Part shown: positions 32,546-61,246 of the stretch, piece by piece
How the letters are laid out: each line of letters begins with the position of its first letter
Numbering within the stretch: the first letter of the stretch is position 1
NCBI GenBank assembly: GCA_009829735.1
Contig: CM020619.1
Location: 4,231,727 to 4,295,726 of the forward strand
DNA from: Pyropia yezoensis
Taxonomy: Eukaryota > Rhodophyta > Bangiophyceae > Bangiales > Bangiaceae
Reading direction: 5' to 3'
DNA length: 64,000 nucleotides
Made by a program: the position numbers and the translations under genes
Notes under the pieces: model-generated
What the model saw: the letters and a program-made list of their open reading frames with translations, nothing else
Told to the model about the DNA's origin: nothing
Database searches by the model: none

Positions 32546-35500
32546 CCGTTGGAGCTGGTCGTCCGAAGCTCACAACGGCAGCCTCGGCCAAGTGGGCCAA
32601 GAGGACGAATCAACCGTGCCGGATACTGCGGCGACCTAAGGGAGTCCGCCCACCTCGGGTAGGACTCCGCAAGAACGTAAACCCACGTCGGGTCATCGCG
32701 GTGCTGACGGGTGAGAACTTCCAGGTGGCTGGACGGGTGCAACTTGCCCCCGGCCGCGCCTGTTGTGCCCGTATCGTACTTGATACCGGGTCAGGAGCCT
32801 CCTTGATACGCAAGTCGCTATTACCAAAGGAGATGAAGCTCCAACGCTGAAAGTCTAAAGCTGACCATCTGATCGATATCAATGGCGGGGTACTTCCCAT
32901 CGTTGGTGCCGTGACCCCACCAACTAGGTTGGGAACCCATGAGGTCGACGTGACCTATGGCGTAGTCGAGAATATATCGGTACCCCTGCTTCTGGGTACC
33001 CCTTATGTTGTAACACAAGTGCGTTTGATTTGTGGCCCTGAGTACTGGGTCAAGTTGATGAATGGGGAGACCATCCCCATCCTTGGTAAGGGAGAGTCTG
33101 TGGCTCCCGTGACAGTCTCACAGTCGAAGCCTGTTTGCTCTGTGAGAGAAGGGTTTACTGCTACCCTGCGTTTAGCCCGTAAAGTCACGTTGCTCCCCAA
33201 CTCGGTGGCGCACGTTGACGTTGTAACTGATTATACGGGGAACGGGCTGGTGCACCCTCACCCCCGTCTTGCTCGCAAGCACCAAGTGCATGTTGGCCTT
33301 GGCACGATGGACTCCAAAGCCGGAGTCCCGTGGAGGATCCAGGTGATGAACCTGAGCTCGTCGCCCAAGTACTTCAAGTCGGGAGCCAAGTTGGGCTATA
33401 TCGTCAAACACGAGGGACCGGTAGTAGCGGTCACCCTCAACGCGGGCGCAAGTAGCGACCCGAAGTCCGGAAAGGAGAAGCATCAAGCCAAGTCGGCCGC
33501 CTCTTCTTGGCCCCATGTGAACATGGAGGGTGTTCCACCCAGGTTGAGGGTTCAAGTTGAACGCCTCTTGGACCAATATCACAAGTTGTGGGATGGTCAA
33601 TTGGGACTCATGAGAGCCACCCAACACCGGATCGAGTTGAAGCCCGGTGCACCCCCTATACGCCAACAACCGTATAGCGGAGGACCCCGTTCAAGGGCCC
33701 TCGTTAAGGAGCAAGTTGCTCGCATGGAGGCCCTCGATGTGATCGAGGCCAGCAACGCCGAGTGGGCGAGTCCGGTGGTTATCGTCCCCAAAGTTGATGA
33801 GACCCCCCGGTTCTGTATCGACTACCGTAAGCTCAACGAGAGTACTGTGAAGGACAGTTATCCCCTACCTAGGATGGACGACTGTCTGGACTCTCTGGGG
33901 GAGGCAAACGTGTTCTCTACCCTAGACTGTAACGCGGGGTACTGGCGAATTCCCATTGCCCCGGAGGACAGGCATAAAACTACCTTTACCTGTCACTGTG
34001 GTACCTACCAGTGCAAGCGTCTACCGTTCGGTCTGTGTAACGCGCCGGCAACTTTCCAGCGCGCTATGGACATGATTCTGGCCGGAGTACGGTGGCAGAT
34101 CTGTCTCGTGTACCTAGATGACATCATTGTGTTCTCCCAAAGTCCGGAGGAGCACATCGGCCATCTTGGCCAGGTGTTCAAGCTACTTGCTGACGCCGGT
34201 GTGTCACTGAAGGCTAGTAAGTGCCACCTCTTCACTCAGGAGGTGGAATACTTGGGACATGTTGTCCGTCCGGGACGTCTCAGTGTCAACGAGAAGAACT
34301 TGAGGGCCATCCCTAAGGCTCAGTACCCCCGGACCCAGACCCAGATGAGGAGCTTCCTCGGGATGTGTAACGTGTACCGACCTCTCACCAAAGGCTTCGT
34401 CAAGTTGGCGAACCCGCTGAATGAGCTCGTTAGCTCAACGCTACCGAAGAACCTACCTCCCCCAAGTCGGGTGGAGCAGGAATCCTTTGAGACTCTTCGG
34501 GACCTTCTGCTGAAGCCCCCTATCTTGGCTATTCCCAGGTTGAGAGGCCACTACATCCTGGACGTGGACGCTAGCTACGACCAACGTGGTTGTGTGTTGC
34601 TTCAGCAGCAGCCGGACAAGGAGTACTTGCCGGTGGGATACTTCAGCGAGGGGCTGAACTCGGCCGAGAAGAACTATGGAGTCACCGAGTTGGAAGGACT
34701 CGCAGTGGTGTGGGCGGTGACGTCACTTCGTCACTACCTAGAGGGTGAGAAGTTCTTCATCCGCTGTGACCACCGCGCGTTGCAGTTCATCTTTAAGACG
34801 GATTGCGCGAACACCCGTCTCAATCGGTGGAGGGTGCGACTGGCACCCTTCAACTTTGATATTGAGTACCGCCCTGGCAGGCAACATGCCCTTGCCGACG
34901 GCCTTTCTCAGGTACCTACCGAGGGGCTGGACACTAACCCAGTCGATGAGGACATCCCCATCGTGGGGGTAGTCACGCGCTCGGGTCAGGTGTTGAACCC
35001 CGAGGCGCCAGGGAACAAGAAGTACTTGCCCCTGTCCCTGGACGAGGTGGTGAGGGCCCAGGCCGAGGATCCCTTCTGCAAGTCGCAGAGGGATACACTG
35101 GATACAGTGGCGGAGACGCGGTTCTTTCTGGGAGACGATGGCCTCCTCATGAGGAGGGGGGTATTCCAGGGGACCGAACAACTTGTCGTCCCCGCATCCC
35201 TCAAGGACAGTATCCTTGAGAGGGAGCACAACGCTCCCATGGGTGGAAACCTGGGATCTAGTAAACTGTACCAGACCCTGAGGACCAGGTACTACTGGCC
35301 GTCCATGGTGGTGGACATCTACAGATGGGTGGCTGCCTGCACAAGTTGTGCACAGAACCGTCTGATGGAACGGCGGCCTACTACGGCTATGCTATTGTTC
35401 CCGGCCAAGGAGCCCTTTGCCGCATTGGCGATGGACATCCTTGGGCCACTGCTAGTGACCGAGGAGGGCAACCAGTACCTCCTGGTCATCTGTGACCGCT

Positions 35501-36525
35501 TCACGAAACTTACGCGAGCGATCCCACTGGCAGAGATCACGGCCATGTCGGTCGTGTCAGCCTTCCTAGATCACTGGGTTGCCGCGTATGGCATTCCGGA
35601 TAGTACACTATCGGACAATGGACCGCAATTTACGTCTGTACTGTTTCAGGGAGTGCTGGGTATGTTGGGGGTTAAGGCAAACTATACTACCCCCTACCAC
35701 CCACAAACTAATGGGCAGGTGGAGCGCTTCAACAAAACTATTGTTCGGCAGCTGCGCCACTATGTGAGTGAGCATGTGAAAACGTGGGACCAATACATTT
35801 CTATTCTTACCACTGCCTACAATTCGCAGGTTCACTCATCTACCGGGGAAGTACCCCTCGCTTTTGTGACCCCCCGTCGCGTGCGGTCTATTGCCGTGCG
35901 GCGGCTGCTCCCAACTAGGGAGGATGGTGGCAGTACGCCTACGCCTACTGAGAGTAAGGCGGAGTTCGCTGCTAGGCTTGACAACCTCATCCCTAAAGTC
36001 AGGGCTGAGATGGACAAAGCACAAAAGCGCTACAAGCGTACTTTTGACAAAAAGGTGCGCAATGCTAGGCCTGTCCCCGAGCAGGGTGACTGGGTGCTGG
36101 TACACTCACACACCCCAACTGGGGGTAAGTTGGTATTCCAGACGAAGGGGCCGTACCCGGTCCTTCGTGCTGATGGGCGGCGGTTCACCATCGAAAGTGA
36201 CGATGGGGTCCGCACAGTGAACGGACAGGACATGGTCAAAGTTGCACCACCGCCTGCAGGCGACCCAGCTTGGGCGCGTTCACTGAAAGCGTGGCGCCTC
36301 CCCTCGCTGCCTGCGGCCAGACAGGGCCCGCAGGAGTACGTGTTCGATAAGTTCATCGACCACGGCTGGGATGAGGACACTGACCGCCTCATGTTGAGGT
36401 TGCGTTGGTTCGGCTACAAGGCCGAGGATGATACGTGGGAGTATGTGGAGGACCTTCCCGCTGAGAAGGTCCGGGCATACTGCGCCCGGAATGATATAGA
36501 CCCTAACAGCCCTCCCACAACGTGA
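32533..36525 (+). pseudogene. Pol of gypsy family 1, copy B
   Basis: Read from the frameshift site: a basic linker, aspartic protease (LDTGSGAS at about 32780), an in-frame TGA at 32848, then an uninterrupted 1204-residue stretch. RT motifs include RFCIDYRKLN, STLDCNAGYW, LPFGLCNAPATFQRAMD and the catalytic YLDDIIVF. RNase H has DVDASYDQRG. The integrase zinc finger has HNAPMGGNLG, where the second zinc His of the usual HHCC pattern is Asn, then CTSCAQN. The DDE core shows MDILGPL, SDNGPQF and NGQVERFNKT. The C-terminus (LRWFGYKAEDDTWEYVEDLP) is chromodomain-like. Gag-side and protease-side stops make it non-autonomous. The same TGA is present in copy A. Confidence 0.92.
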
Positions 36526-36636
36526 GGGAAGGCCGGGAGGTAGTGCCAAGAGAGTGCTTCAAGTCGAAGTGGTACGCAGAGTGGCTTTTAACTACAGCCC
36601 TAACCCTCACACTCTCACAACAAAGGCAGCTGCCAA

Positions 36637-37975
36637 CTAGGCATGCATGCTAGACTCTCCAGCCCCGCGGCCCTCGCCCTCACGTGGAGGCGAGCGGCGT
36701 GACCCCCGCCGACGACGCTCCCCACCAGTCGGCGGGGCCGGCGGCTCCAAGTCGGAACCGTCGCGCCCCTCACGGTCGCGCAAGTGGCGACGACCGCGGC
36801 TACCCTTCCGTTTAGTCTTGCGCGCAAGTTGGCGACGCAGACGCCGGACCGACTCCGACTCTGACGGAGTAGAGGACTCCGAGACGGAATAAGACAACTC
36901 GTTTGCCGACACGGAGGGAGAGCGCCGCGAGTGGCGGCGACGACGGCGAGGAGGCGAGTACGCCCGGCTCGCGCGACGTTCGCCACGCCCAAGTGGGGCT
37001 GGCTGGGGCATAATAGCCCCAATGCGAGCCAACTCGGCCGTCATAAACTCCGCCACCGACTCGCAACTCGCGGTCGCCACTGCAGTACGAACGCGCTCCT
37101 CAAGTTGAGGAGTCTCGGAACTCTGTAGGGTTGCGGTCGACGCGGCCAACCAGTAAATGGTGCGCACCAACGTGGTGATCATCATCTCTGAGGTTAGAGG
37201 CGTGGGCGGTAACACCAACTTGGGGTATACCGTCAGGAGGGTGGCCCCCAAGTTGGGGGACACCGGGGTGGACGACTCAATGGCCACGCTAATCGGGATG
37301 TCCCCGTGCGGCTTTTAGGGGACAGGAGGATGCGGAGGGGCACGCCGCGGTGGCGGTGCTCGAGTGTAATTGCGAGCCCTACTCGGGGCCCCCGCAGTGG
37401 GTTGCGGCAGTAAACCCTCGTGAGTAGGCACGGCCATAACTATGGGCTTGTCCGGGGGTGGCGCAGTGTGGCGATCCATCCCCGGGGCATACGGGTAGTC
37501 CCCGATGCCCAGCCCCTCTCGTAGTACCACACGGCCGTCGTGAAGTTCACAAGCGACCCATACGAACTGGCGAAGTGGGCCATCGTCCTTGGGCCCGCGG
37601 TTGGGGCGGCGCAGCTTGTGCTTAATGCTGTCCCCCTCGATAAACTTATGGAGCCGGAGCATCTCCTCAAGTAGAGCGAGTAGTCCTGATGAGCACCCCT
37701 CAGCGACTAGCTGAGGGGTGAGCTGTTCCAAACCTTGGATAAGCCGAAGGGGAAGATGCCAGAGCATCCCCCGCCGCAGGACACAAGACACCCAGGTCGA
37801 CATGACCTCGAGGAGCCACTGGGTGGCCAACATGGCCCACACCAGGTGATCAGGGCCAGCCGTCAACATGACGGAGCCGAAGTGGTCGAGTAACCGTGGT
37901 AGCAACGCAGGGAACCCGTAGGGGACCTCAACTTGAGGCCACCACTCGGGCTTCTTGGAGTAGTACTGCTCCGGT
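36637..37975 (-). pseudogene. Antisense accessory ORF of gypsy family 1, copy B (truncated)
   Basis: Mirror of 23777-25114. The distal part (36637-37287) is nearly identical to copy A, and the same in-frame stop lies at 37315-37317. Beyond it (37318-37905) the two copies differ at roughly one residue in eight (for example VVLREGLGIGDYPYAPGMD against VVLRAGLGIGDYPYAPAVD). The gene is cut at about 37975, before its N-terminus, and unrelated sequence follows. Confidence 0.72.
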
Positions 37976-38562: not shown

Positions 38563-39753
38563 TCAGAACACAGGCCCCGCACCCGGGCGAAGCAGCCCCA
38601 TATCCTCCACTCCGCGCGTCATTCTAACCCTCAGGTCGGAACGCTCACGGTCCCGGCGGCGCCCACGTTGGTCAGGACCGACCATATCTGTCGGAGGGAG
38701 TGACGCTTGACCCCCAACTTGGTCGTTACCCCACGGCCCATGGGCACAGTTCCTTGCAGAAGCATCGCCCTGGCAAAAGTTATGCAAGCGAAAACACGAA
38801 CGCAGAAGGCTCGGTCTCTTGGGAAAAGGCACACGCAAAGGGCGCCAAAACACACCCCATCGCCACGAAAGCATGCCAAAAACATGCTCGATGTGGATGC
38901 GGCTTGATGACTGATAAAAGGTGTAACCATCCTTCCAGCGTTCACCTCGCCCACCGCCTGGCCAAGGTACGGCCAATACCTCGCTGGCAGCATATGCATC
39001 GTCAGCCACAATGCAATGGCCGTTGGCAATCAAAGCCGCCGTCAGCTCGTGGACAGGGTTCAATAACGTCCGACCAAGTCGCGTGCAGGCAAACGCTGTC
39101 GAGTCATGGGTAGCACCAGGGCTCGTGCAGCTCATCCACCGAAACTTGTAATCGGCGTCGCAGATCGCCTGGGCGTCGAACGAGTAGAAGCCCTTCTTTG
39201 AGTAGTAATCCGCGACGCATTGGACGTCAGACGGCAGAGGCTGCTGCTGGCGTATCGCGACGCCGTTCAAAGCCCCAATCACGTTCCCAAACGGGGACCC
39301 CCGACGGCGCTGGAAGCCACCCGCGTAATCCAGCCGTCGGTCTCGGCTGCTCAGCTTGAAGTCAGGATCCAGCGCTGGAGTGGCATTGATGGCATCAATC
39401 ACCTCCCAGAGCGCCAGGTAGAACGTGGCGGGGTGGACACCAAAAACCGCGCAGATGTCCACATAGCTGCCGCCGCCCAAGTACCTGAGCGCCGGAGCCG
39501 TGCGATGCAGTGGGGACAGTCCGCGGCGCGGAAGGCGGGGGCGCAAGACAGCCACCAAGCTCCTGACAGCGTCTGCCGGCATCCGCATTGCGCGGGCGAA
39601 GTTGGCACCGTAGCGGGCCTTCACATCCTCAACAGTAATAGGGATGTTTACATCAGGGGGAGGAGAAGCAAACAACCCGGGCCAACTATACATGGTGGCC
39701 GCTACGTTGATGTCGTGGGCTGTAGCGGCAGTCCGCCAGGCCGGGCGGTACAT
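38563..39753 (-). CDS. PIF/Harbinger transposase (HARBI1-like), first catalytic Asp replaced
   Basis: 396 residues from the first ATG at 39753; the frame is open to 39849, where only TTG is available, so an upstream exon is possible. It carries the DDE_Tnp_4 layout: a helix-turn-helix-like part (PALRYLGGGSYVDICAVFGVHPATFYLALWE), FGNVIGALNGVAI, FYSFDAQAICDADYKF, SCTSPGATHDSTAF, CIVADDAYAAS and HIEHVFGMLSWRWGVF. In active family members the first catalytic Asp lies in GxxDGxxI; here it is Asn (residue 163). The later acidic residues are kept: Asp217 in THDS, Asp251 and Glu289. The frame is otherwise intact. It may be a recently inactivated transposase or a binding-only derivative; a sequencing error at one base is also possible. 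Confidence 0.85.
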   Translation of the reverse strand: MYRPAWRTAATAHDINVAATMYSWPGLFASPPPDVNIPITVEDVKARYGANFARAMRMPADAVRSLVAVLRPRLPRRGLSPLHRTAPALRYLGGGSYVDICAVFGVHPATFYLALWEVIDAINATPALDPDFKLSSRDRRLDYAGGFQRRRGSPFGNVIGALNGVAIRQQQPLPSDVQCVADYYSKKGFYSFDAQAICDADYKFRWMSCTSPGATHDSTAFACTRLGRTLLNPVHELTAALIANGHCIVADDAYAASEVLAVPWPGGGRGERWKDGYTFYQSSSRIHIEHVFGMLSWRWGVFWRPLRVPFPKRPSLLRSCFRLHNFCQGDASARNCAHGPWGNDQVGGQASLPPTDMVGPDQRGRRRDRERSDLRVRMTRGVEDMGLLRPGAGPVF

Positions 39754-40751
39754 GGCCGCGCGTCTGTCGCGGAGGAGACCACTGCCATCGATATCGGGTA
39801 GGAGTGTTTGTAAATGGCGCACCAAGGTCGAGGCTAAATCGACACGCAATTCTTACATTTATCTTCCTCGGCTGTGTAGTTACTTGTCGTGCGGTTGTGC
39901 CTGCGCTCATCCTTTCGCAGCCCCGGGCCCCGGGGATGCGCTGCGTGTGCCCTGCGAACACCGTCTGCGAACAGGCATGAGCTTAAACCGTAGCCGGTGT
40001 GACCTTCTTGCGCCGCTTGTGGCGCCCCACGCCAGGTTGGCCAGGCACCTACGCGGAAATTCCAGAGGGTTTTGACTAACCCTATTGTCCTTGGCCCTGG
40101 CCTTGGCACTCCGGACGCGCTGGACAAGCCTCGCCTCACGTAGCGTGTCGACTACTTCCGGTCGCCAGCTCGTGAGAGCGTTCCTTCGCGTAGTAATATA
40201 AGTCTCGAGAATGGCGACGTCCTCCGTTGCCGGGTCAGCTTCAAGAAATATCACAATGACCGCGCACACCATGGCAGCCACCTCTTGGGTGTTGGTGGCG
40301 GAACAGGAGCAACGCTTGCTATGACTGGGCGTAGCCAGCCCATGATGGGTGGGGGGGTCTCAAAGATGTGCGGTGGACGGGAACCGAGGCAAGGGCGCTA
40401 GACCTCTCTGGCAAGGTGCACAGTGCGGCGGGCAGGGAGGGGTGTTTGCGTGATTGACGTGCCTCGTGTCTGTTCTACTTCTCCTCGACGACCAATTGAT
40501 CCGTTCGTGAGGATCAATCGTTCCGGTCCCGGAATCGTCGATTCCGGCTTCTCCTCGTACGAAAACGACGCTTCGGGAGACTTCGATATTGCCATTTGAC
40601 GCTTCACAGCTGTTCAGGCGTTCACGCACGAGTGGCGGTGGCACACTCTGTAGCTGACGAGGAGCTGCATGCCATGCACAAAACGCTTCGTTGCAGTTCT
40701 GCTTTCCGCTGCCCGCCCCCGCTCAATGTGGCACCAATGAACATGGCCCAA
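39754..40751. other. Unassigned region upstream of the Harbinger transposase
   Basis: A minus-strand frame at 40281-39907 begins MAAMVCAVIVIFLEADPATEDVAILETYITTRRNAL and could be a 5' exon of the transposase gene, since that gene lacks a good start, but I found no convincing splice pair. From 40,320 to 40,750 I see no coding signal. Confidence 0.3.
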
Positions 40752-41230
40752 CATCCTGTGGCAAAAACCACAAGCACACACGGCACCCAAGTTGGGGCGG
40801 TGTGCTAGGGCTGCCTCCCGTGTCGGGGGAACCGGAAGAAGTGCAAGTCGCACACACTCTGTCCCTGTTGTGGGGCAAACCCCCCACGGACAAACAAGAG
40901 GATGGTGTGTGGTCCAACAGTTTCTTGGTCGGGACGGGGACGCAGGGCCAAGCCCCGCTGTCCCTCCCCTTATCCCCCCAGGGTCCACTCAGAATCTCGC
41001 CACTCAGAATCTCCCACCCCAGCACCTGCCCACCGGGCCACACGAAAATTCAAGACGATAAATGCAGAAAACCCTCAAATCCAAGTTGGATTTACTACTA
41101 AGCTAACTATCCCAAACTTAGGGAGTATGGACCCAAATGCAGGGGGAGGAACGGATCAGGCTAGTGGCCTGCCGCCCCTTGCATGGCACGTGTTGCCCCC
41201 CTACCTGGGGGTCAATACTGCCACACATCC
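40752..41230 (-). mobile_element. Solo LTR of gypsy family 1 with 5-bp target duplication
   Basis: The LTR spans 40757-41225 (469 bp), TGTGGCA...TGCCACA, flanked on both sides by CATCC (40752-40756 and 41226-41230). No internal sequence is present, as expected after recombination between the two LTRs of a full insertion. It fixes the true LTR boundaries of family 1. Confidence 0.92.
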
Positions 41231-41771
41231 CACAAAAGTCCCACCATCACCCCCCCCCCCGTCCCCCCCCCCCCCCCACGCCCAATTTCACACCGCTGCG
41301 GCATCCCTCTCGTGTCCTCCGCCCGCCCCCAAACCGCCACCCCCTCGGGCCCCTTTCATCTCCCCCGAGTCGCCACCACTTGGAGCCGCGGCCACCCTTG
41401 GAGTCCCCCGGCCGCCCCCACTCCGCGACCCCACGGCGCCGCTCGCGCCCGAGCAATCCGCCACACGCTGACGCCACGGCCACCGTCCGCGTCCGTGCGC
41501 CGCCCCCACATCGCGGCTCCACGGCGCCGCTCGCGCCCCGCCACGCTCGGCAGGGGCGAGATGAAGAGGAGAGCGATGAGCGCGGGCCACGCAGCGGGCC
41601 ACAATCGATGTGTCAAGAACCATGTGGGGGGGCGCCGGGGGAAGTGGGACCCAATGTGTGGGCGGTCGGGGGGGGGTGGGGGGGATGGTGGAGGGGGGGC
41701 GGGCGCGGAGCGACGCACCTTTCCGGCAAGGGCAGCGTTGCTCTCTCAGATAAGAGGCGGGCACTCTGTTG
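41231..41771. other. C-rich low-complexity region
   Basis: Includes C-runs at about 41248-41278 and GC-rich sequence with long overlapping frames on both strands and no recognisable protein. It ends at the target-site copy of the family-2 array. Confidence 0.4.
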
Positions 41772-41776
41772 GCGAC

Positions 41777-42350
41777 TGTGGTATAAAACTCGATCCTCTC
41801 AGACACGTGTCAATATCCCTCGGGGGAAAGGGACAGGTAACGCAGAAAGGGGAACTACGAGAATGGTATGCCTGTTGCCTCACGTGCCTGCTCGCAGGGC
41901 AAACAGATACGCACGGTAGTGCACACGGGGAAGAGGAAAGCAAACGCGCAGTTGTCTTTTTCCCTGAGGGCGCGGGCCGAGGGCGCCTCGCTGTCCCTCT
42001 TAACGTGCATCTGGGGGAACCCCGGCACGTTGGCCCGGTAGCCCCCCCCCATAACCCCGAGTGGCCCCGACCCGAGTCTAACCTCGTCAGGTCGGGGGCC
42101 ACTATCACTACTAATTCTATTCCCACTCACTAATCTCACACTCAAATTCTCTCAAATCAAGTCCCTCACAAATATGCAAAAACACATCAGAAATCCCTCT
42201 CTCGCGTGTGGATAGCGTAGTCCACCGCATCCCAGTGCCGGGCACGGGCCACGGCCGCCAACCATCGCCACACGGCGGGCGTGTTCTGGCACCTGGTGCC
42301 CTCTGGTTGCAGTCCCGGGTCGGCGCCAAGTCGGGGCCAGGGATGCTACA
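41777..42350 (-). mobile_element. Family-2 LTR 1 (3' LTR of the left unit)
   Basis: 574 bp, TGTGGTATAAAAC...GGGATGCTACA. It is identical to LTR 4 in the length-variable tracts (nine C, four A). A TATAAAA at 41782-41788 lies in the plus orientation, pointing towards the antisense ORF. Confidence 0.93.
42061..42102. other. LTR hairpin
   Basis: GTGGCCCCGACCC pairs with GGTCGGGGGCCAC across a 16-nt loop with one bulge. The same hairpin is present in every family-2 LTR (for example 51143-51184). It would fold in either transcript strand. Confidence 0.7.
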
Positions 42351-42351
42351 T

Positions 42352-42363
42352 AGCTCCCTCCCT
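42352..42363 (-). other. Polypurine tract of family 2
   Basis: Minus-strand AGGGAGGGAGC next to the 3' LTR; a short TA separates it from the LTR end. Confidence 0.5.
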
Positions 42364-42537
42364 AGTCCGGCACGTCCTCGGGCCGAACCAGGTGCCACCG
42401 TGCACAGCCTCGAGCACGTCCACACCGGTGCCGAGGTCGAGCGTCTTCACCCCGGTCACGATCACCTGCCCCGATTCTGCCCCCCCCCCCCTTCGCTCCT
42501 TCACCTTGGCCTTCTCGTTCCCCGGAGTCTGGACGGT

Positions 42538-44655
42538 ATGTCCAGTTCCGAGATCCAAGCTGGGCCCGTGGTTCCGGCGGCGAGTGTTGCGGAGGAGAAC
42601 TCGGGTCGTCGTGCCCCTCTCCTGCCTCCGGTTCCTCGGATGTCGGTGCCGGCGCCGGTCGCCACGGCGGGGACGGATCGAGTTCCCCCGGCTTCCGCGA
42701 TGCACCCGGTCGAGGCCCCCCCGGAGGGTCTCCCGGAGATGCTTCTTGGGCAGGACCCTCTGGCGGCCCGGCGTTACTCCACGGTGGTCGGCAACGCCGG
42801 CGCGGCCCAGTGCCAGCAGGATTGCATGGACCTCTGGCGCAAGGAACTCCAGCGCGGGGTCTTGACCGAGATGGACAAGGCACGTCTTCATACGGCGGAC
42901 CAGATGCGCCTGGCACAAGACCGCTCCCAGAGCTTCTCGGGTTCCTCTTGGGCTGCTCGTCTGGAGGATCTCCCCTTCGCGCTGGTACTGGATCTACCCC
43001 TGACCGAGCGTCGCGTGTCCGCGTCCGTTCTCCGGTGGCCGGAGGAGGAAGGGTACGTCCACCGGGCGCTCAAGGTCTGGGACGAGGCGCTCAAGGGGTC
43101 GGGAAGCTTGAACTGCGACCCCCGTCCGAGCATGGTCGCTCTGGAGCCGCCTTTCTTGACCCGGAAATACTCCAAGTTGTCGCCGGCACGGGAGCAGGGT
43201 GAGCGACGCGGGCGTCAGCGTGACTTCCTTGTAAGCTGCAACCACCAGGAGTTCTGGAAGCTGGACAAGGCTAACCGGGCGGCATACTACCCCAAGGTCA
43301 TCCCGCAGCAGCAGGAAGTCGAGATCCCGGTCGGGTTTGCTCCTTCCAGCATCCCTTGCACCTGGTACTTCTTGGACGCCTTGACTCAGGCGTCGATCAA
43401 GGGCTTCTTCCACTCAATCCCGTACATGATGTACACGTCCGAGATGACAGTCTTGGCGGCCAACCACTGGCTTCATGAGGTCTTGGTGTCCAACCGGCTT
43501 TGGTTTCTCCCTGACCTCCTGATGGTCTGGATTGTCGACAAGTTGACCGTCAACTTCCTGTGCAGCCAGGACGAGGAGTACAAGGAGCTCTTCCAGGCGA
43601 TGATCGACTTCCGGCGTCTGGTGCCGGTGCATGACCGGCACTTCTTGAACGCGATTGCCGACCAGAACCGCCCGCGTCGGGATGGCTTCGGTTGGGCGCA
43701 GGTGGTCTACCAGTCTTCTCCGGCCAAGGTGCAGCTGGCGACGCCGCTTCCGGCGTGGCCGCAGCTAGGTAGCTTTCCTGCTCCGGCCGCCCTTGATCTT
43801 CTGCCAGTTGGACCGCCGGTGCAGGAGTCGGGATGGGCCGCGGCGGTCGGTCGGGCGTCTGCGGCGGCTCCACTTCCTCCGGTTGCCCCTGTCGCCCCGG
43901 TCGCCTCGCCTGAACCGTCACCGGCACGTCCGCGCCCTGTTCCGGCTGTGCCAGTACTTCAAGCTCCTCCGGCACCGCGCTTGTCTGCGGCGAGTCTGGG
44001 AGTGGCCGTGCGGTCGCCGATTACTCCGGCCGCTCTACCCCGGACGCCTTCTTCCAACGCCGGCGGCGCTGTGCCTCCGCTGGAGTTGGGTACTCCGGTC
44101 TCGGGGGCCGTTGTGGACCGTCCGGTAGTGTCATCCTCGGGCCGGTTCGAGATTCCGGCGCCGACTCTGCGCCTCACCCGCTTCCGGGTGCCTGACTGGT
44201 ACCTGAACCAAGGTGGTCCAACATGCGACCAGTACGACGTCGGCATGATTGAAGACCAGCTGGGTCGTCTTCCGGTGCAGGTTGAAGGCGTCGGGTCCTC
44301 TCTGGTGCTGGGTACTTACGCCAGCGTCTTGAACGACGTGGTCGACCGGGTGTTTGCTTGCGCGGACAGCGGCCAGATGTCGAACAACCCGGTGGTTGGC
44401 GAACTTCTGGCGACTTTGACGCGGCATGGCCTGGCCCAGCAGTGGTCAGAGACCTTCACGGGCTTCCAGCGGCGCCGACGGACATATCTGGATGAGCGGG
44501 AGCCACCGGCAACTACTGGTACTACTCCGATGGCGTCATACCGGGATGCGCCGCGTCCACCGCACTACGTCATCCCGTCTTCCTCCGGTTCCCGTCGTAC
44601 CGCGGAGGCAACGCCGGAGGACACTCCCGCGGCTCAGCGTCCGCGCCGGGAGTAG
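42538..44655 (+). CDS. Antisense accessory ORF of gypsy family 2 (copy 1, intact)
   Basis: A 705-residue protein on the strand opposite to gag-pol, between the 3' LTR and pol. Its stop is 145 bp from the pol stop. The frame is also open upstream through the LTR, but the first ATG after the LTR is at 42538. Layout: a Pro/Ala-rich N-terminus (1-75), a charged helical region (80-180), a conserved core (about 170-420) with YVHRALKVWDEALKGSG, YYPKVIPQQQEVEIPVGF and ANHWLHEVLVSNRLWFLPDL, a Pro/Ala linker (430-540), a second folded-looking region (WYLNQGGPTCDQYDVGMIED, VLNDVVDRVFACADSG) and a polar tail ending QRPRRE. The core aligns with the antisense ORF of family 1. No zinc finger, protease or polymerase motif is seen and I know no matching domain. 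A 705-codon frame kept open and identical in two copies, with a homologue in a diverged family, argues for function. Promoter: possibly the antisense TATAAAA in the LTR. Confidence 0.8.
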   Translation: MSSSEIQAGPVVPAASVAEENSGRRAPLLPPVPRMSVPAPVATAGTDRVPPASAMHPVEAPPEGLPEMLLGQDPLAARRYSTVVGNAGAAQCQQDCMDLWRKELQRGVLTEMDKARLHTADQMRLAQDRSQSFSGSSWAARLEDLPFALVLDLPLTERRVSASVLRWPEEEGYVHRALKVWDEALKGSGSLNCDPRPSMVALEPPFLTRKYSKLSPAREQGERRGRQRDFLVSCNHQEFWKLDKANRAAYYPKVIPQQQEVEIPVGFAPSSIPCTWYFLDALTQASIKGFFHSIPYMMYTSEMTVLAANHWLHEVLVSNRLWFLPDLLMVWIVDKLTVNFLCSQDEEYKELFQAMIDFRRLVPVHDRHFLNAIADQNRPRRDGFGWAQVVYQSSPAKVQLATPLPAWPQLGSFPAPAALDLLPVGPPVQESGWAAAVGRASAAAPLPPVAPVAPVASPEPSPARPRPVPAVPVLQAPPAPRLSAASLGVAVRSPITPAALPRTPSSNAGGAVPPLELGTPVSGAVVDRPVVSSSGRFEIPAPTLRLTRFRVPDWYLNQGGPTCDQYDVGMIEDQLGRLPVQVEGVGSSLVLGTYASVLNDVVDRVFACADSGQMSNNPVVGELLATLTRHGLAQQWSETFTGFQRRRRTYLDEREPPATTGTTPMASYRDAPRPPHYVIPSSSGSRRTAEATPEDTPAAQRPRRE

Positions 44656-44800: not shown

Positions 44801-47800
44801 TCAATCCTCTTGTTCCGCATCCGTTGCGGGCGAGCTCGTCTCGTCCCGAGGGTCTTGGTTGGCCCCGTCCTCTTGGTCCTCCTCCGTGTCCGACTCCAGA
44901 ATCTTGCCGGCTCTGGCCACTGGAGTGCCCTCGATCCCGTTCCGTCGCGTGTAGGCACAGACGTCCGCGATGGGTAGCCGGTTTGAGGGTTCCCATGTAT
45001 CATCTGCTGGGTTAAAGCCGAACCAGCGTACTCGCAGGTACAGGCGTCCATCTCTCCAGGCATGGTCGACAAACTTGACGTAGACAAATTCCCGACCTTC
45101 TTCTTGGGATAGCCAGGGTATCGCAGTCCGCTTACGCCGGGTCAAGTCCCGTTGGCTTGGCGGTGGAGCTCGGGTGACATGGTCGCTGCTCACCCGGTAC
45201 GGAGAGCCATCCACGTCTAGAAGGAAGGTCCAGCCATCCGTATTGAGAATCTCATAAGGTCCATCCGTCTTAGAGTCCAGCTTCCCCCGGGTCTTGCTAT
45301 GGTTGTCCACAAAAACCCAGTCGCCACCACCCAGTTCCTTGTTCTTTTCCCGGACACCCTTGTCATAGTCCCGCTTGTATCGCTCCTGGGTCTTTGAGAT
45401 TGACTCCTTGACTCTTGGGAGCAGGAGCTTTAGTTGTTCCAGGAACTCATCCTTTGCCTTGGGACCTGACTTCAGTGCAGGCTGGAGACCATCCGGTATT
45501 CTTTCCAGGGAGAAGTTGGTCAGCCGCCTTGGGGTGACAAAGTCGAGTGGAGCGACTCCCGTTGTCCGGTGAACTCGGGAGTTGTAGGCTAGAGTGAGGA
45601 CAGCCAGGAGCTCGTCCCAGTCTTCTTGGTGCTCCTCCACGTAGTGCCGTAGCATGTCCACTAGGGTCCGGTTGAATCGTTCCACCTGACCGTTCGTTTG
45701 AGGGTGGTACGTCGTGGTGTACAAGTTCTTGATGCCCATCAGGTCACAGACTCCTTGGAAGAACAGGGATGCAAACTGGGGACCGTTGTCGGTTAAGACG
45801 GAGTCTGGAGGGCCGTAGGCAGCTATCCAGTACTCGCAGAAGGCCGACGTGACATCCAGAGCCGTGATGGTTCTCAACGGGATTGCTCGAGTGAACTTGG
45901 AGAACCGGTCACAAATGATGAGCAGGTATATGTTGCCACTGGAGGTCTCAGGTAGGGGCCCCAGGATGTCCATGCTTAAGCTTGCAAAGGGCTCCGCCGC
46001 AGGGAATAGGCGTAGCTTAGAAGTCTTCTTCCTCTGGGACAACCGGTTCCTTGCACAAGAAATACAAGCCTCCAGGCACTTATGGACGTCACTGGCCATG
46101 GTTTCCCAGTAATAATGTCGTCTCATGGAAGCATACATCCGATTGATACCAGGATGCCCGGCCTGGGGAGACGAGTGCTCCAGGCGTAGGATGTCAGTCC
46201 GTAGGCTCCGGGGTACGTAGACTTGAGTTGCCCCATCGAAGGGTGACACCCGTACCAGGAGTCCGTCTGTAGACTCGGAGAAGCGACTGTTCCGGTTCAG
46301 GTCCATTTGGTGGCGAAGCTCCAAGCATTGAGGGTCCGTCAATTGTGCCTCCAGCATCCGGTGAATGGTTACCGGTTGATGAGCGTCAGGTGTCTCGTAC
46401 AGGGGAGCGTGCCAGCCACGTCCGACATTCGGGAGGATGAAGCAAGGTATTTCCTCCGGGATAGGACCGGTATCGGCTGCAGGAGTCTCCAGCCGGGACA
46501 TGGTGTCGGCGCAGTGGTGCTCCCTCCCTGCTCTGGTGCACACCTTGTACTTGAACTCCGGAAGGCGTAGGCGCCACCGGGCGACCCTTCCTTGACTGCT
46601 GTCCATGCATAGCAGCCACCTTAGACTGGCGTGGTCCGTCCGGATGAGGAACTCTTGTCCTTCAAGATATGGACGTAACAGGAAGCAAGCCCAGACGACC
46701 GCCAAGCACTCGCGCTCGGTCGTGGAATAGTTCTTCTCGGCTGGAGTCAAGACGCGACTGTAGTAGCCTATCGGGAGGAAGTGCCCATCAGGTTGTTGCT
46801 GGAGTAGTGAGCACCCCACCTGGACGCTACAGGCGTCAGTCTCCAGAACAAACTGACCCTCCCGCTTGGGTAACGCCAGTACTGGAGTGGTGGTCAGGCG
46901 CTTCTTGAGCTCTTCGAAGGCTGCTGTCTGCTTCTCGTCGAACACCGGGAGTTGTGCTGGAAGCTTCTTGCTAGTAAGCTTGGTCAAGGGCCGGGCAATC
47001 AGAGCGTAGTCCCGTACGAACCGGCGGTAGACGTTGCACATACCCAGGAAGCTCTTGAGTTCCGTCTGGGTTTTAGGTTGCCGTGCATGCCGGAGGGCCT
47101 TGATGTTCTTCTCGTTGACTCGGAGCTCCCCCGGACTCAGCACGTGCCCCAGGTACTCCACCTCAGTCTCAAACAGGTGGCACTTCTCGGCCTTGAGGGT
47201 AACTCCAGCCTTGGACAGGAGGGCCAGGACCTCTCGAAGGTGCTCCAGGTGTTCCGCTGGGGTCTTGGAGAAAACGATGATGTCGTCCAGGTAGACCAAA
47301 CATGTTCTCCACCTTAGCCCCGACAGGATGATGTCGATGGCTCTCTGGAAGGTTGCCGGAGCATTAGTGAGACCAAAAGGGAGACGCTTGCACCGGAACA
47401 GTCCCATGTGGCACGTGAAGGTTGTCTTGTCCTTGTCCTCGTCAGCCAGAGGGATCTGCCAGTAACCGGCATTACAATCCAGCGTCGAGAAGAGGGTGGC
47501 ATCACCAAGAAAGTCGAGGCAATCATCCATCCGGGGTATCGGGTATACATCCTTGACTGTCATCTCGTTCAGGCGTCTGTAGTCAACGCAGAAACGGAAG
47601 TGACCGCCAGGTTTCGGGACGACTACCACCGGGAAAGCCCACTCGCCATCAGACGGCTCGATAACATCCATCTTGAGCATCTTGTTAACCTGCTTCTCAA
47701 TCTCATCCCGGCGATGAGGTCCAGCCCGGTATGGGTGCATGTGCACTGGTTTGGCATCTGGCTTGAGTTGAATCCGGTGTAGGGTGGCGTCCATCTTGCC

Positions 47801-48901
47801 CAGCTCTCCGGACCACAGGTGCCGATATTCCTGGAGAAGCTTCTCCAGTGCCTCCTTCAAGTCGAGAGGGACGTTTTCTTGGTTGACCTTCGGCATCCCG
47901 GGCGGTGCTTGTTCCGGCTTCGGAGTAGTACGGCCAGCCTGCTCTTGTTCCGGAGATACGTCTAAGGCCGTCAAGTTGGATGCCAGCTCTTGTTGCAGGT
48001 TGAAGAGGTCTTCCTTGCTCATAGCGCGGGCGGACCCCCGGTAAGGCTCTGCTGTACCAACTCGAGTGCCCTTGGCGAGGGTTATTGGCTTCCGGCTCAC
48101 GTTGACGATCAGCACCGAGAACGGGGTGTGCCTCTCCACCTTCTTGTGGTGTCCGTGGGCTAGGTATAATCGGTGTTTCGCCAGAAATTCCTTGCGTCCG
48201 TAGATCAGGCATTGACCTGCAGTCCGGGTCGTGACTTGAACCTTGGTCTCCGAGCGAGGAGGTAGGAGCACCGGTTTGATGAGGGTCAAGGTAGAGGGTG
48301 GGATGCGTTCCTTCTGGTTCTTGGCCACACGAACCTTGGTGTCCAGGTGCTCCAGCACTGGTGACACAAACCCATGGTTGAACTGCACCTTTCCTTCTCC
48401 GGGTAGGATGCTCTTGACATGCTGCTTCTGGAAGTCCCAGCCTAGGATGAGGGGGACTGATAAGGTCTTGACTACTAGAAAGGGAAAAAGCATTGGTTCA
48501 TTGTTGACATAGATGGCGACGGGAAGACGGCCAAGCGGTCGTAGGGTTTGACCTGATGCGTCTACAATCCGGGTCTTGGTAGGCGCTCTCCAGGCATGTC
48601 GACGCCAGCCCGGAGGTAACAGGTTCTCAGTGATGACGCTTGGTCCGGCTCCCGTGTCGACCACCGGCGTAACAGCTTGGGGGAGGCTATCCCCCACACG
48701 CATACGAGCATTAATCTTGAGGTTTTCCTTACGCAGGACGAGCAAGGTCCCCTTGAACAAACAGGGTGTCCAGGCGGCTACCGGTTGAGCAGGTAACTGC
48801 CGTCCTTTCTCCCGGCACGCAAGGGGAGAACAGGTAGAAGTACCCTGCCGTTGGAGATTCGGGAAGACACTTGGGGAGAGCGCCTGCCCTACTCGTTTCC
48901 C
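44801..48901 (-). CDS. pol: Pol of gypsy family 2 (copy 1): protease, RT, RNase H, integrase, chromodomain
   Basis: Read in the -1 frame from the GGGAAAC heptamer at the end of gag: 1366 residues without a stop. Order: basic linker; aspartic protease with VVDTGAGPSV and LILGWDF; RT with FCVDYRRLNEMT, TLDCNAGYWQIPL, LPFGLTNAPATFQRAID and the catalytic YLDDIIVF; RNase H with ETDACSVQVG; integrase HHCC finger (EHSSPQAGHPG ... CISCARN), first Asp in MDILGPLP, second in TDNGPQF, Glu in NGQVERFNRT; GPYEILNTDG domain; chromodomain-like LRVRWFGFNPADDTWEP; acidic tail. All catalytic residues I can check are present. The uninterrupted frame has no usable ATG at its beginning, consistent with translation only as a Gag-Pol fusion. 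The domain order (integrase last) marks Ty3/gypsy, and the chromodomain marks the chromovirus branch. Confidence 0.95.
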   Translation of the reverse strand, partial: GKRVGQALSPSVFPNLQRQGTSTCSPLACREKGRQLPAQPVAAWTPCLFKGTLLVLRKENLKINARMRVGDSLPQAVTPVVDTGAGPSVITENLLPPGWRRHAWRAPTKTRIVDASGQTLRPLGRLPVAIYVNNEPMLFPFLVVKTLSVPLILGWDFQKQHVKSILPGEGKVQFNHGFVSPVLEHLDTKVRVAKNQKERIPPSTLTLIKPVLLPPRSETKVQVTTRTAGQCLIYGRKEFLAKHRLYLAHGHHKKVERHTPFSVLIVNVSRKPITLAKGTRVGTAEPYRGSARAMSKEDLFNLQQELASNLTALDVSPEQEQAGRTTPKPEQAPPGMPKVNQENVPLDLKEALEKLLQEYRHLWSGELGKMDATLHRIQLKPDAKPVHMHPYRAGPHRRDEIEKQVNKMLKMDVIEPSDGEWAFPVVVVPKPGGHFRFCVDYRRLNEMTVKDVYPIPRMDDCLDFLGDATLFSTLDCNAGYWQIPLADEDKDKTTFTCHMGLFRCKRLPFGLTNAPATFQRAIDIILSGLRWRTCLVYLDDIIVFSKTPAEHLEHLREVLALLSKAGVTLKAEKCHLFETEVEYLGHVLSPGELRVNEKNIKALRHARQPKTQTELKSFLGMCNVYRRFVRDYALIARPLTKLTSKKLPAQLPVFDEKQTAAFEELKKRLTTTPVLALPKREGQFVLETDACSVQVGCSLLQQQPDGHFLPIGYYSRVLTPAEKNYSTTERECLAVVWACFLLRPYLEGQEFLIRTDHASLRWLLCMDSSQGRVARWRLRLPEFKYKVCTRAGREHHCADTMSRLETPAADTGPIPEEIPCFILPNVGRGWHAPLYETPDAHQPVTIHRMLEAQLTDPQCLELRHQMDLNRNSRFSESTDGLLVRVSPFDGATQVYVPRSLRTDILRLEHSSPQAGHPGINRMYASMRRHYYWETMASDVHKCLEACISCARNRLSQRKKTSKLRLFPAAEPFASLSMDILGPLPETSSGNIYLLIICDRFSKFTRAIPLRTITALDVTSAFCEYWIAAYGPPDSVLTDNGPQFASLFFQGVCDLMGIKNLYTTTYHPQTNGQVERFNRTLVDMLRHYVEEHQEDWDELLAVLTLAYNSRVHRTTGVAPLDFVTPRRLTNFSLERIPDGLQPALKSGPKAKDEFLEQLKLLLPRVKESISKTQERYKRDYDKGVREKNKELGGGDWVFVDNHSKTRGKLDSKTDGPYEILNTDGWTFLLDVDGSPYRVSSDHVTRAPPPSQRDLTRRKRTAIPWLSQEEGREFVYVKFVDHAWRDGRLYLRVRWFGFNPADDTWEPSNRLPIADVCAYTRRNGIEGTPVARAGKILESDTEEDQEDGANQDPRDETSSPATDAEQED

Positions 48902-50649
48902 GGCTCCGAGGAGTCCTTAGAGGTTTCGGTCTCCAGGTCAAAGTCCGTAGGAGCTTCCCTTGCCAGAGCCTCCGTGATGCTCTGTAAGGTTGCCACTCGG
49001 ATGGCATGTATCTGTGCCTTGTCCATCTTGGAGGGTGCCCGCCGGTCAGCCCAGTTGACCGCCTTTGCAAACACCAGTCCTTGACGCTTGAGTTTCTCCT
49101 GGAGATCCTCGGGAATGGTCGGGCACTGGTAGGACATATGATCCTCCTTCTGGCACAGCCAGCAAGACCGGAACCGCTGGTTCCTGATCTGCTTGGGGGC
49201 GACCAGGGAAGGTTGCTCCTTAGAAACGAAGCCGCCCCACTTGTCCCTTGACTCCATGGGTGAGGCCTCGCCAACTGCGAGTACCGGTACAGGGTTATCA
49301 CCTCCCTTATACTTGTCGGGTCCGGGACGAACTCGCGACAACGGCTTGGGGGTTGATACCATAGGAGCCTGGAGGGCCTTGGCTTGCCGGTGCTTGCCCT
49401 GGGTGTAGGCCATCAACTGCTGGAAGGTATGTTCTTGATGTTCCTGGTTGTAGTTCTCCGCATCCACTTGAAGATATTCAGGAAGCCCCTCCGAGAAGAT
49501 CATCTTGAGCCTGTCCTCAGGGTAAACGTTGCCGCAAGCATCGCTCATCTCCCGGACACGACGGGCGAACGCCTCTGGAGTCTCTTGTCTCTCCATGGTT
49601 GCCCGGTTCAGCCTACCGACTGCCTTACGCAGGGAGTCCGCGTCTGCGTAGTTGGACAGGAGCCAGTTGACCGCCTCTGGATAACTCGCGACGGTACGTC
49701 CAACAATGTGCCCGGCAGAGTCTGGTAGAACCTGTGCAAACCGCTGTTCCGCTTCTCCGGTCATGAAGTTAACCAAGAGATAGAGAGCCTTGCCCTCGGA
49801 CACATCGTTGTCATTGCATGCCTTGACAAACCGGCGCAGGAAGGCAAAGATAAGCGCCGGTCTCTTCCCGGAAAACTTAGGATGTCCCCCAAAGCTCGGC
49901 TGCATTCGCCGGTTCAGGGATGCCATCTTCTTGGCCATCTTCCGGGTGTAACCTTGGTCTTGGTTCTCCAGCCGGTAGTTACCCCAATACGTGACCTTGT
50001 TCAGGGTGGCATCTCCCACTTGGTGGGCAGGGAAGTCGAACTCGACTAGCCTGCGCCGGGTAGGACCGGGAGATGCATCCCAGTCATATCCCTCCTCAGA
50101 GCTGGAGGAACTGGTCTCGCTGGTGCTAGAGCGGCGGCGACGACGCCGACGCCTACGGCTGCTCCGGTCACCGGTCTTGGAGCTCCCCGCCCCATAGGAC
50201 GCAAGGGGAGGAAAAGCTTGGCCGGTCCCAGGAGTCGAAGTCTCAGGAAGACCCGTAGAACCAGTCATAGCGGTGCCTCTGGCACTGCTAGTGCCCACAG
50301 GAAGAGGTGTATACACCCAGCTGCCATGTGTGGGTCCAGGAGTAAACACACCAGGGGCTATCCCTGGAGGTTGAAGAGTAGAACCGACAGGAGGGAGACG
50401 CCTGCTGCGAGCGGACTCAAACGCCGTTGACCCCGGGGTGGCTCCCACAGGAGGAACAGCCGGAGGAACAAGAGCAGGCGGTACTTGGCCGCCTGTAGAC
50501 TCCAGTCCACTACCGGATGTCACGCCCAGGTCTGCTTCACCCGTAGGGAGAACGCCGGGTTGGGCACCATCCCCCGCGGTGACCAGGGATGCGTCAAGGG
50601 ACGCGGGGTCTACCCCTTCGGGCACCGTCGTGCCAGGGAGGGTAGCCAT
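48889..50649 (-). CDS. gag: Gag of gypsy family 2 (copy 1)
   Basis: 586 residues from the ATG at 50649. The first 150 residues are Pro/Gly/Ser/Thr-rich; an RRRRRRRRRR stretch and a Ser/Glu block follow (about 165-190). The capsid-like domain (about 250-440) includes LIFAFLRRFVKACNDNDVSEG, clearly related to LRVFEFLRRFTKACDD of family 1, and ETPEAFARRVREMSD. A CCHC knuckle, CWLCQKEDHMSYQC, lies near residue 510. The protein ends PGNE, and its last codons contain the slippery heptamer for Pol. It forms the virus-like particle core and binds element RNA. The leader between PBS and ATG is 188 nt. Confidence 0.93.
   Translation of the reverse strand: MATLPGTTVPEGVDPASLDASLVTAGDGAQPGVLPTGEADLGVTSGSGLESTGGQVPPALVPPAVPPVGATPGSTAFESARSRRLPPVGSTLQPPGIAPGVFTPGPTHGSWVYTPLPVGTSSARGTAMTGSTGLPETSTPGTGQAFPPLASYGAGSSKTGDRSSRRRRRRRRRSSTSETSSSSSEEGYDWDASPGPTRRRLVEFDFPAHQVGDATLNKVTYWGNYRLENQDQGYTRKMAKKMASLNRRMQPSFGGHPKFSGKRPALIFAFLRRFVKACNDNDVSEGKALYLLVNFMTGEAEQRFAQVLPDSAGHIVGRTVASYPEAVNWLLSNYADADSLRKAVGRLNRATMERQETPEAFARRVREMSDACGNVYPEDRLKMIFSEGLPEYLQVDAENYNQEHQEHTFQQLMAYTQGKHRQAKALQAPMVSTPKPLSRVRPGPDKYKGGDNPVPVLAVGEASPMESRDKWGGFVSKEQPSLVAPKQIRNQRFRSCWLCQKEDHMSYQCPTIPEDLQEKLKRQGLVFAKAVNWADRRAPSKMDKAQIHAIRVATLQSITEALAREAPTDFDLETETSKDSSEPGNE
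48895..48901 (-). promoter_or_regulatory. GGGAAAC -1 frameshift heptamer (copy 1)
   Basis: Gag-frame reading G GGA AAC GAG TAG; shifting back one base gives GGG AAA CGA GTA, which opens the pol frame with no stop until 44801. The position is identical relative to the gag stop in family 1. Confidence 0.75.
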
Positions 50650-50858: not shown

Positions 50859-51432
50859 TGTGGTATAAAAACTCGATCCTCTCAGACACGTGTCAATATC
50901 CCTCGGGGGAAAGGGACAGGTAACGCAGAAAGGGGAACTACGAGAATGGTATGCCTGTTGCCTCACGTGCCTGCTCGCAGGGCAAACAGATACGCACGGT
51001 AGTGCACACGGGGAAGAGGAAAGCAAACGCGCAGTTGTCTTTTTCCCTGAGGGCGCGGGCCGAGGGCGCCTCGCTGTCCCTCTTAACGTGCATCTGGGGG
51101 AACCCCGGCACGTTGGCCCGGTAGCCCCCCCCATAACCCCGAGTGGCCCCGACCCGAGTCTAACCTCGTCAGGTCGGGGGCCACTATCACTACTAATTCT
51201 ATTCCCACTCACTAATCTCACACTCAAATTCTCTCAAATCAAGTCCCTCACAAATATGCAAAAACACATCAGAAATCCCTCTCTCGCGTGTGGATAGCGT
51301 AGTCCACCGCATCCCAGTGCCGGGCACGGGCCACGGCCGCCAACCATCGCCACACGGCGGGCGTGTTCTGGCACCTGGTGCCCTCTGGTTGCAGTCCCGG
51401 GTCGGCGCCAAGTCGGGGCCAGGGATGCTACA
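50859..51432 (-). mobile_element. Family-2 LTR 2
   Basis: 574 bp, same ends as LTR 1. It differs only in tract lengths (eight instead of nine C, five instead of four A). It is followed directly by internal sequence (TAGCTCCCTCCC at 51433) rather than by a flank, so it is shared between two units of the array or marks an assembly loop. Confidence 0.9.
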
Positions 51433-51541
51433 TAGCTCCCTCCCTAGTCCGGCACGTCCTCGGGCCGAACCAGGTGCCACCGTGCACAGCCTCGAGCACG
51501 TCCACACCGGTGCCGAGGTCGAGCGTCTTCACCCCGGTCAC

Positions 51542-51709
51542 NNNNNNNNNNNNNNNNNNNNNNNNNNNNNNNNNNNNNNNNNNNNNNNNNNNNNNNNNNN
51601 NNNNNNNNNNNNNNNNNNNNNNNNNNNNNNNNNNNNNNNNNNNNNNNNNNNNNNNNNNNNNNNNNNNNNNNNNNNNNNNNNNNNNNNNNNNNNNNNNNNN
51701 NNNNNNNNN
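51542..51709. other. Assembly gap (168 N)
   Basis: Run of N between a piece of internal sequence (51433-51541) and the middle of LTR 3. The true length and content are unknown; a whole 9.2-kb unit could be missing. Open frames running across it have no meaning. Confidence 0.99.
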
Positions 51710-52160
51710 GCAAACAGATACGCACGGTAGTGCACACGGGGAAGAGGAAAGCAAACGCGCAGTTGTCTTTTTCCCTGAGGGCGCGGGCCGAGGGCGCCTC
51801 GCTGTCCCTCTTAACGTGCATCTGGGGGAACCCCGGCACGTTGGCCCGGTAGCCCCCCCCATAACCCCGAGTGGCCCCGACCCGAGTCTAACCTCGTCAG
51901 GTCGGGGGCCACTATCACTACTAATTCTATTCCCACTCACTAATCTCACACTCAAATTCTCTCAAATCAAGTCCCTCACAAATATGCAAAAACACATCAG
52001 AAATCCCTCTCTCGCGTGTGGATAGCGTAGTCCACCGCATCCCAGTGCCGGGCACGGGCCACGGCCGCCAACCATCGCCACACGGCGGGCGTGTTCTGGC
52101 ACCTGGTGCCCTCTGGTTGCAGTCCCGGGTCGGCGCCAAGTCGGGGCCAGGGATGCTACA
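51710..52160 (-). mobile_element. Family-2 LTR 3 (partial, gap-truncated)
   Basis: Matches LTR 1 from its position 123 to its end (GGGATGCTACA). It has eight C in the C-tract, as in LTR 2. The first 122 bp fall in the gap. Confidence 0.9.
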
Positions 52161-52346
52161 TAGCTCCCTCCCTAGTCCGGCACGTCCTCGGGCCGAACCA
52201 GGTGCCACCGTGCACAGCCTCGAGCACGTCCACACCGGTGCCGAGGTCGAGCGTCTTCACCCCGGTCACGATCACCTGCCCCGATTCTGCCCCCCCCCCC
52301 TTCGCTCCTTCACCTTGGCCTTCTCGTTCCCCGGAGTCTGGACGGT

Positions 52347-61241: not shown

Positions 61242-61246
61242 GCGAC

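Follow-up and report, generated by a model that had tools for sequence, protein, structure and literature searches.

An antisense reading frame under purifying selection in Ty3/gypsy retrotransposons of the red alga Pyropia yezoensis

A Ty3/gypsy long terminal repeat (LTR) retrotransposon in the genome of Pyropia yezoensis carries, on the strand opposite to gag-pol, an uninterrupted frame of 705 codons in which purifying selection acts on the amino-acid sequence. The element lies in a stretch of 64,000 nucleotides (C2:4231727-4295726, hereafter the window) of the searched assembly of 107,475,971 bp. The frame runs from ATG to TAG at 42538-44655 (+), is placed between the 3' LTR and pol, and meets pol tail-to-tail, the two stop codons being 145 bp apart in this copy. 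The original prediction, made from the letters of the window, had claimed an intact frame converging on pol, and it is present as described, with gag and pol on the minus strand. That prediction had also suggested that the frame encodes an accessory protein not described before. A ratio of nonsynonymous to synonymous changes of 0.23-0.25 of neutral supports this, as do homologues that occur in two other families of elements and in another species. Judged on these sequence comparisons, the frame is almost certainly a genuine protein-coding accessory gene of Ty3/gypsy elements. A fuller account, in which the protein is translated from an antisense mRNA, supplied in trans and acts as a nuclear regulator rather than as an envelope protein, is given a probability of about 0.45.

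Genomic copies of the gene were ranked by protein score, and all 63 places scored (the best of 23,070 first-look candidates) were without internal stops and 98-100% identical. The main test sample consisted of rows 1-40 of these 63, each taken as frame and flanks, with the window copy as reference. No indel column fell inside the frame in any of the 39 other copies, and length differences in the 300 bp before the ATG, a stretch made up of the leader and the LTR end, occurred in 35 of the 39. Across the 40 copies there were 117 distinct substitutions, 78 synonymous, 39 nonsynonymous and none creating a stop, and third codon positions carried 77 of the 117. Under a null model that placed identical base changes randomly at sites of matching base and CpG class, 36.9 synonymous changes and 3.8 stops were expected, and none of 500 simulations attained 78. 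The resulting ratio is 0.23 of neutral; the 3' end of pol, handled alike except that L024 and L052 were removed for their rearranged pol, gave 27 nonsynonymous and 65 synonymous changes, no stop and a ratio of 0.19, so that the constraint on the two genes is comparable in strength. By segment, the ratio was 0.20 over residues 76-400, 0.31 over 401-545 and 0.18 over 546-705. Of the five other frames in the region, four had fewer synonymous changes than expected. The original prediction had named a neutral ratio across many copies as part of what would speak against it; the ratio obtained (0.23, or 0.25 in the copies described next) is far from neutral.

As ranking by protein score favours conserved and intact frames, a second sample was anchored on pol instead, using 1500 bp of pol as query, which gave 40 matches. 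Twenty-seven of these adjoin an already listed intact frame; of the remaining thirteen copies, twelve were examined in sequence and the thirteenth was judged from the match table to hold a partial frame. One of the twelve (L070) is intact, six (L060, L065, L066, L068, L069 and L071) keep all or almost all of their length and carry 1-19 indel bases each, and five (L061-L064 and L067) are truncated or interrupted by N. The antisense frame is intact in 28 of the 40 pol-anchored copies and present in part in the other 12. The single-base indels in the six copies may in part be assembly errors. Distinct substitutions pooled from seven copies (L063, L065, L066 and L068-L071) numbered 78, of which 51 were synonymous, 27 nonsynonymous and none a stop, a ratio of 0.25; pooling all twelve gives the same 78 variants. 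The frame itself, used as a DNA query, gave 41 matches; the 39 that are full-length were each recognised, on inspection by eye, among the 63. In the main test sample, the pol end adjoins the antisense gene in 38 of 40 family-1 loci.

The length of the frame by itself is strong but not extreme evidence for GC-rich DNA. In simulations of the 2450-bp region in which the 705-codon frame was observed, the longest plus-strand ATG frame reached 601 codons (mean 149) under a first-order Markov model (n = 3000) and 627 codons (mean 206) under a second-order model (n = 1500). The remaining five frames of the antisense region contain 8-18 stops apiece.

The host element of family 1 (F1) bears the marks of a Ty3/gypsy LTR element, namely LTRs of the form TG...CA, a target-site duplication, a putative primer-binding site (PBS) and a polypurine tract (PPT). 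Its 3' LTR (574 bp, 41777-42350, minus strand) is identical across 574 bp to the 5' LTR of the right-hand copy (60668-61241, minus strand), which has a PBS-like TGG 4 nt inside, and the purine run GGGAGGGAG stands immediately ahead of the 3' LTR. The 187 bp from that LTR to the antisense ATG (42351-42537, +) form a leader that is a candidate antisense promoter or 5' untranslated region (UTR). On the minus strand follow pol, a frame of 1319 aa at 44801-48760 encoding reverse transcriptase (RT), RNase H and integrase (INT), and gag, 586 aa at 48889-50649, with a zinc-knuckle match (zf-CCHC, E 0.018) under the cut-off. Pfam domains in pol occur in the gypsy order RT-RNase H-INT (RVT_1 381-540, RNase H 634-736, rve 923-1020), and the protease match is under the Pfam cut-off. 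At the C-terminus of pol, all three families described here give a Chromo match (E 0.00045, 0.014 and 0.0036; 20.5, 15.8 and 17.6 bits) that falls under the curated cut-off of 25.1 bits; the pol C-termini are likely diverged chromodomains. The lineage is taken to be of a probable chromodomain type among the Ty3/gypsy elements of bangialean red algae.

A second copy of the element stands to the right in the window, with an identical 705-aa antisense gene at 52347-54464 (+), pol at 54610-58569 and gag at 58698-60458 (both minus strand). The original prediction had pointed to this copy, and the identity holds; its value as independent support does not. Over 9.5 kb the copies share 99.96% identity, and a single 5-bp target-site duplication, GCGAC, brackets the whole double element at its outer ends only (41772-41776 and 61242-61246). 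Between the copies lie an LTR (50859-51432, minus strand), which both would share in a genuine tandem array, and a run of N (51542-51709) that joins identical 560-bp stretches, 50982-51541 being equal to 51710-52269. The pair may be either a tandem array (LTR-internal-LTR-internal-LTR) or an assembly duplication. Because the pair flanks a gap and shares one target-site duplication, the second copy was dropped as independent evidence. At the N run a contig ends in a repeat, and the contigs possibly overlap.

Homologues of the antisense protein occur in two other element families. When the window was searched with the F1 protein (tblastn), matches were found at 23636-24112 (+, E 4e-6) and 37965-37639 (minus strand, E 0.015), both in decayed copies of a second family (F2). 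One of these copies holds an antisense piece at 23573-24436 (+), whose core is homologous to the 705-aa protein (23% identity, E 4e-6), an Arg/Ser-rich C-terminal piece at 24464-25114 (+) that is read apart from it, and a pol at 25226-28840 (minus strand) with RT, RNase H, INT and a weak chromodomain match, 44% identical to the F1 pol. The inverted copy has its pol at 32911-36525 (+) and its antisense pieces at 36637-37287 and 37315-37905 (minus strand). Genome-wide, all 136 scored F2 places are stop-free over the 287-residue query, most of them in a 724-codon frame. Seven of the ten F2 loci examined hold an intact 647-aa protein, and among these seven copies 49 synonymous and 14 nonsynonymous changes were counted, against 19.1 synonymous expected. 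In nine of the ten loci the strongest match to pol falls at its integrase end, adjoining the antisense gene on the opposite strand; in the tenth (L012) it falls in a different part of pol. The F1-F2 pair scored 36.2 bits with BLASTP, and 100 shuffles gave at most 23.9. The two F2 elements of the window (23779-30223 and 31528-37972) together form a 6.4-kb inverted repeat, 98.7% identical and 1.3 kb apart, which could be either neighbouring insertions or a palindromic duplication.

A profile search recovered the protein P0003, leading to a third family (F3), for which 72 genomic matches were scored at 32-35% identity; these presumably belong to one family. In its sole locus examined, L059, an antisense frame of 638 aa with its ATG at 714 runs towards a convergent pol; this pol shares 46% identity with that of F1 and 63% with that of F2, and again has a weak chromodomain match. 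The antisense proteins of F1 and F3 match with E 1e-8 (tblastn) and 7e-6 (BLASTP), and those of F2 and F3 with E 4e-44 and 1e-38, respectively. Significant similarity of F1 to the other families is centred on residues 186-342, and that between F2 and F3 covers about 390 residues. In pairwise comparison, without a tree, the pol identities (44%, 46% and 63%) rank as the relatedness of the antisense proteins does, as would be expected if the gene had descended with the element. Because a homologous gene occupies the same site in three families, it was probably carried by the ancestor that they share and then inherited together with pol.

Relatives extend to a second species. A profile of the families matched eight proteins among 7997 candidates scored, a search that reaches only proteins sharing short words: P0004, which is 99% identical to F3, three further proteins, and four hypothetical proteins at NCBI from Pyropia vietnamensis that are 51-57% identical to F3 (E 3e-85 to 5e-132). 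One of these four, P0006, aligns with genomic copies of P. yezoensis (N. yezoensis) over residues 3-631 of 633 at about 54% identity, and 63 of its 71 genomic matches are without a stop. The P. vietnamensis genome lists the four (P0006-P0008 and P0010) as hypothetical proteins (MMPV_009580 and others), and if they are located in elements there, they may inflate host gene counts. Proteins of the F3 type (P0004-P0006, P0008-P0011 and L059) have in common the N-terminal motif LGTEES, which precedes a second ATG and is possibly an alternative start or a functional peptide.

From its sequence, the protein appears to consist of a variable N-terminus rich in Pro, Ala and Ser, a conserved core, a Pro-rich linker and a C-terminal segment. 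Residues invariant in an alignment of 12 rows include G266, F267, P269, P273 and W311. Near its C-terminus F1 contains the run RRRR, and the tail of F2 is rich in Arg and Ser. The original prediction had recognised no known domain, and this stands: none of 12 family members matched any Pfam model at E up to 10, and no informative PDB chain emerged, a PDB profile search giving no matching sequence. Five weak single-sequence PDB matches to a Rieske subunit (best E 0.005) fell in the Pro/Ala-rich residues 474-555; they were taken as compositional. Of the two kinds of search that had been proposed for the protein, profile searches were fruitful in finding the relatives in other element families, and structure prediction was not: two AlphaFold models had mean pLDDT of 31.4 and 36.5, values too low for any structural conclusion, so that fold matches would mean nothing. 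Two scans of viral contigs found no relatives.

By layout, the antisense gene is an aORF-3R, a class defined for plant elements. It resembles the aORF-3R of Grande (gene23), RIRE2 and Retand in place, in lying on the opposite strand, in presence in most copies and in conservation (PMC7264820, PMC11963269), and the conservation comparable to that of gag-pol proteins that marks the class is seen here against the pol 3' end (0.23 vs 0.19). Retand belongs to a non-chromovirus lineage (PMC11963269), unlike the present elements, which have a red-algal host and a pol with a chromodomain-like end. Transposase_28, which 97% of Retand clusters contain (PMC11963269), is absent here: PF04195 gave no match in five and in 12 antisense proteins at E up to 10, and none in the genome, and membership in the Retand TRP28 group was rejected. 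As far as the comparison went, the likeness to the Tat-lineage elements named in the original prediction is one of layout. Judged by the absence of Retand's domain, the antisense protein looks like a separate, undescribed family.

Antisense frames between pol and the 3' LTR have also been described for Boty of Botrytis and PvRetro13 of bean (PMC7264820), to which the present gene is likened by description; ORF2 of PvRetro13 is described there with an SMC domain, whereas no Pfam domain was found in the present proteins. Deltaretroviruses such as HTLV, with an antisense protein gene opposite gag-pol, are a cited analogue (PMC11963269) and serve here as an analogy only. The host element is like chromoviruses in its RT, RNase H, INT, chromodomain-like C-terminus, LTRs and 5-bp duplication, and differs from them by the extra antisense gene and by chromodomain matches under the Pfam cut-off. 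A survey of 2012 reports no retrotransposon chromodomain in the Porphyra yezoensis sequence then available (PMC3350952). No report of an antisense gene in red-algal elements was found in open-licence PubMed Central, searched by titles and abstract starts. Reverse-strand genes of LTR retrotransposons have been reported chiefly from flowering plants, and the present one comes from a distant lineage, backed by a measurement of selection at the protein level, by three divergent element families and by a second species.

The protein is probably made from an antisense transcript of its own, by analogy with Grande, whose protein is described as nuclear and as transcribed from a promoter upstream of gene23 (PMC7264820). 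Such an mRNA would start within the 187-bp leader or in the LTR next to it and would free expression from the gag-pol transcript, and many scattered copies could supply the protein in trans. The product might then act in the nucleus, where it would counter host silencing or control transcription or integration. This regulatory or anti-silencing role, drawn from the same analogy, is held tentatively. It is a somewhat more doubtful proposal that an ancient, hitherto undescribed family, confined to bangialean retrotransposons of the chromodomain type, had an origin separate from that of the Tat-lineage antisense genes of plants and came to do the same job, as a nuclear factor for anti-silencing or the steering of integration. 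If true, LTR retrotransposons would have arrived at the strategy of reverse-strand accessory genes repeatedly, and such genes would be no plant oddity. As 48.0% of the P. yezoensis genome consists of repeats, mostly LTR retrotransposons (PMC7423979), and such elements dominate the repeats of this crop seaweed, a protein encoded in multiple copies may shape genome silencing or invasion. The frame is open in many copies, so expression and localisation are directly testable.

Several observations weigh against this interpretation. Residues 1-75 show no detectable constraint (eight nonsynonymous and four synonymous changes, ratio 0.79 from 12 variants), and codon usage separates the antisense frame weakly from the next-best frame (0.101 vs 0.094). 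A synonymous excess (67 vs 36.2 expected) is also seen in the minus-strand frame whose third codon positions coincide with those of the antisense frame; this minus-strand frame has eight stop-creating variants and 11 existing stops. Score-ranked sampling favours conserved copies, and the answer obtained through pol covers 12 copies; among the 40 pol-anchored copies the frame is intact in only 28, with six bearing small indels and six truncated or cut by N. Likeness of F1 to F2 and F3 is limited to about 130-160 residues at 25-26% identity, the F1-F2 pair was not reported by phmmer, and F1 against P0003 alone is not significant (E 0.95). Finally, the nuclear role draws on analogy and on the basic tails of F1 and F2, and basic C-terminal tails are not seen in the F3 and P. 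vietnamensis proteins.

Other explanations of the frame were weighed against that of an accessory gene. That the frame is open by chance in GC-rich DNA, and has stayed so only through the youth of its copies, might be supposed given that simulations attain 601-627 codons and the scored copies are 98-100% identical; it is judged refuted, its probability being close to nil, by the synonymous excess in the main sample and in copies not ranked by frame, and by homologues across families and species, including P0006 of P. vietnamensis. It is also improbable that the antisense transcript matters and not the protein, the RNA pairing with gag-pol RNA to give double-stranded RNA (dsRNA) or small RNA while the frame is incidental. 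Convergent genes could indeed yield dsRNA across the pol 3' end, and regulation by dsRNA has been raised as a possibility for plant elements (PMC7264820), yet constraint falls on amino acids, with 77 of 117 variants at third positions and neither stops nor frame indels in 40 copies, and amino-acid homology persists between families. Roles of transcript and protein could coexist. Alternatively, the frame could be a host gene that was captured and now rides as cargo in elements amplified recently. Such a passenger is conceivable in young, near-identical copies, and the relatives in P. vietnamensis are annotated as ordinary genes, but this is unlikely as three families hold the gene at equal site and orientation, although their pols are 44-63% and their proteins 25-36% identical, and as the pol end adjoins it in nearly all loci of F1 and F2 and in L059.

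Two further explanations concern what a protein at this place might be. A second structural, capsid-like component of the particle, encoded in reverse, would fit the very weak models, which are predicted to be mostly helical, and the Pro-rich linker and basic tail may be taken to resemble Gag in composition. The sense frame already supplies gag, however; none of 11 antisense proteins was similar to the three gags of the window (F1, part of F2 and a DUF1759-like one; best E 0.27), and no zinc-knuckle-like pattern was present in five proteins. A relation to Gag was rejected on these grounds, and a Gag-like role is considered unlikely, to about the same degree as cargo. An envelope-like or membrane protein is very improbable. 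The env site is between pol and the 3' LTR, and P0003 has two hydropathy windows of at least 1.6, but the gene is on the opposite strand, and the other four proteins (P0001, F2, F3 and P0006) have neither such a window nor a hydrophobic N-terminus, and a relation to Env was likewise rejected because no transmembrane-like window occurs in four of the five.

The window also holds traces of other mobile elements. A 428-aa frame at 38563-39849 (minus strand) has a DDE_Tnp_4 transposase domain (E 7.5e-19), and a gag-like frame at 20417-21769 (+) has a DUF1759 match slightly under the cut-off. A fragment with integrase, SH3 and chromodomain parts at 18330-19490 (minus strand) belongs to a further element; its identity to the integrase of family 1 is 26%. 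A repeat of 200-480 bp occurs in several copies and both orientations (22157-22837, 30222-30478 and 40757-41231); it contains an internal inverted repeat (22193-22362 / 22627-22796) and may be a small non-autonomous element.

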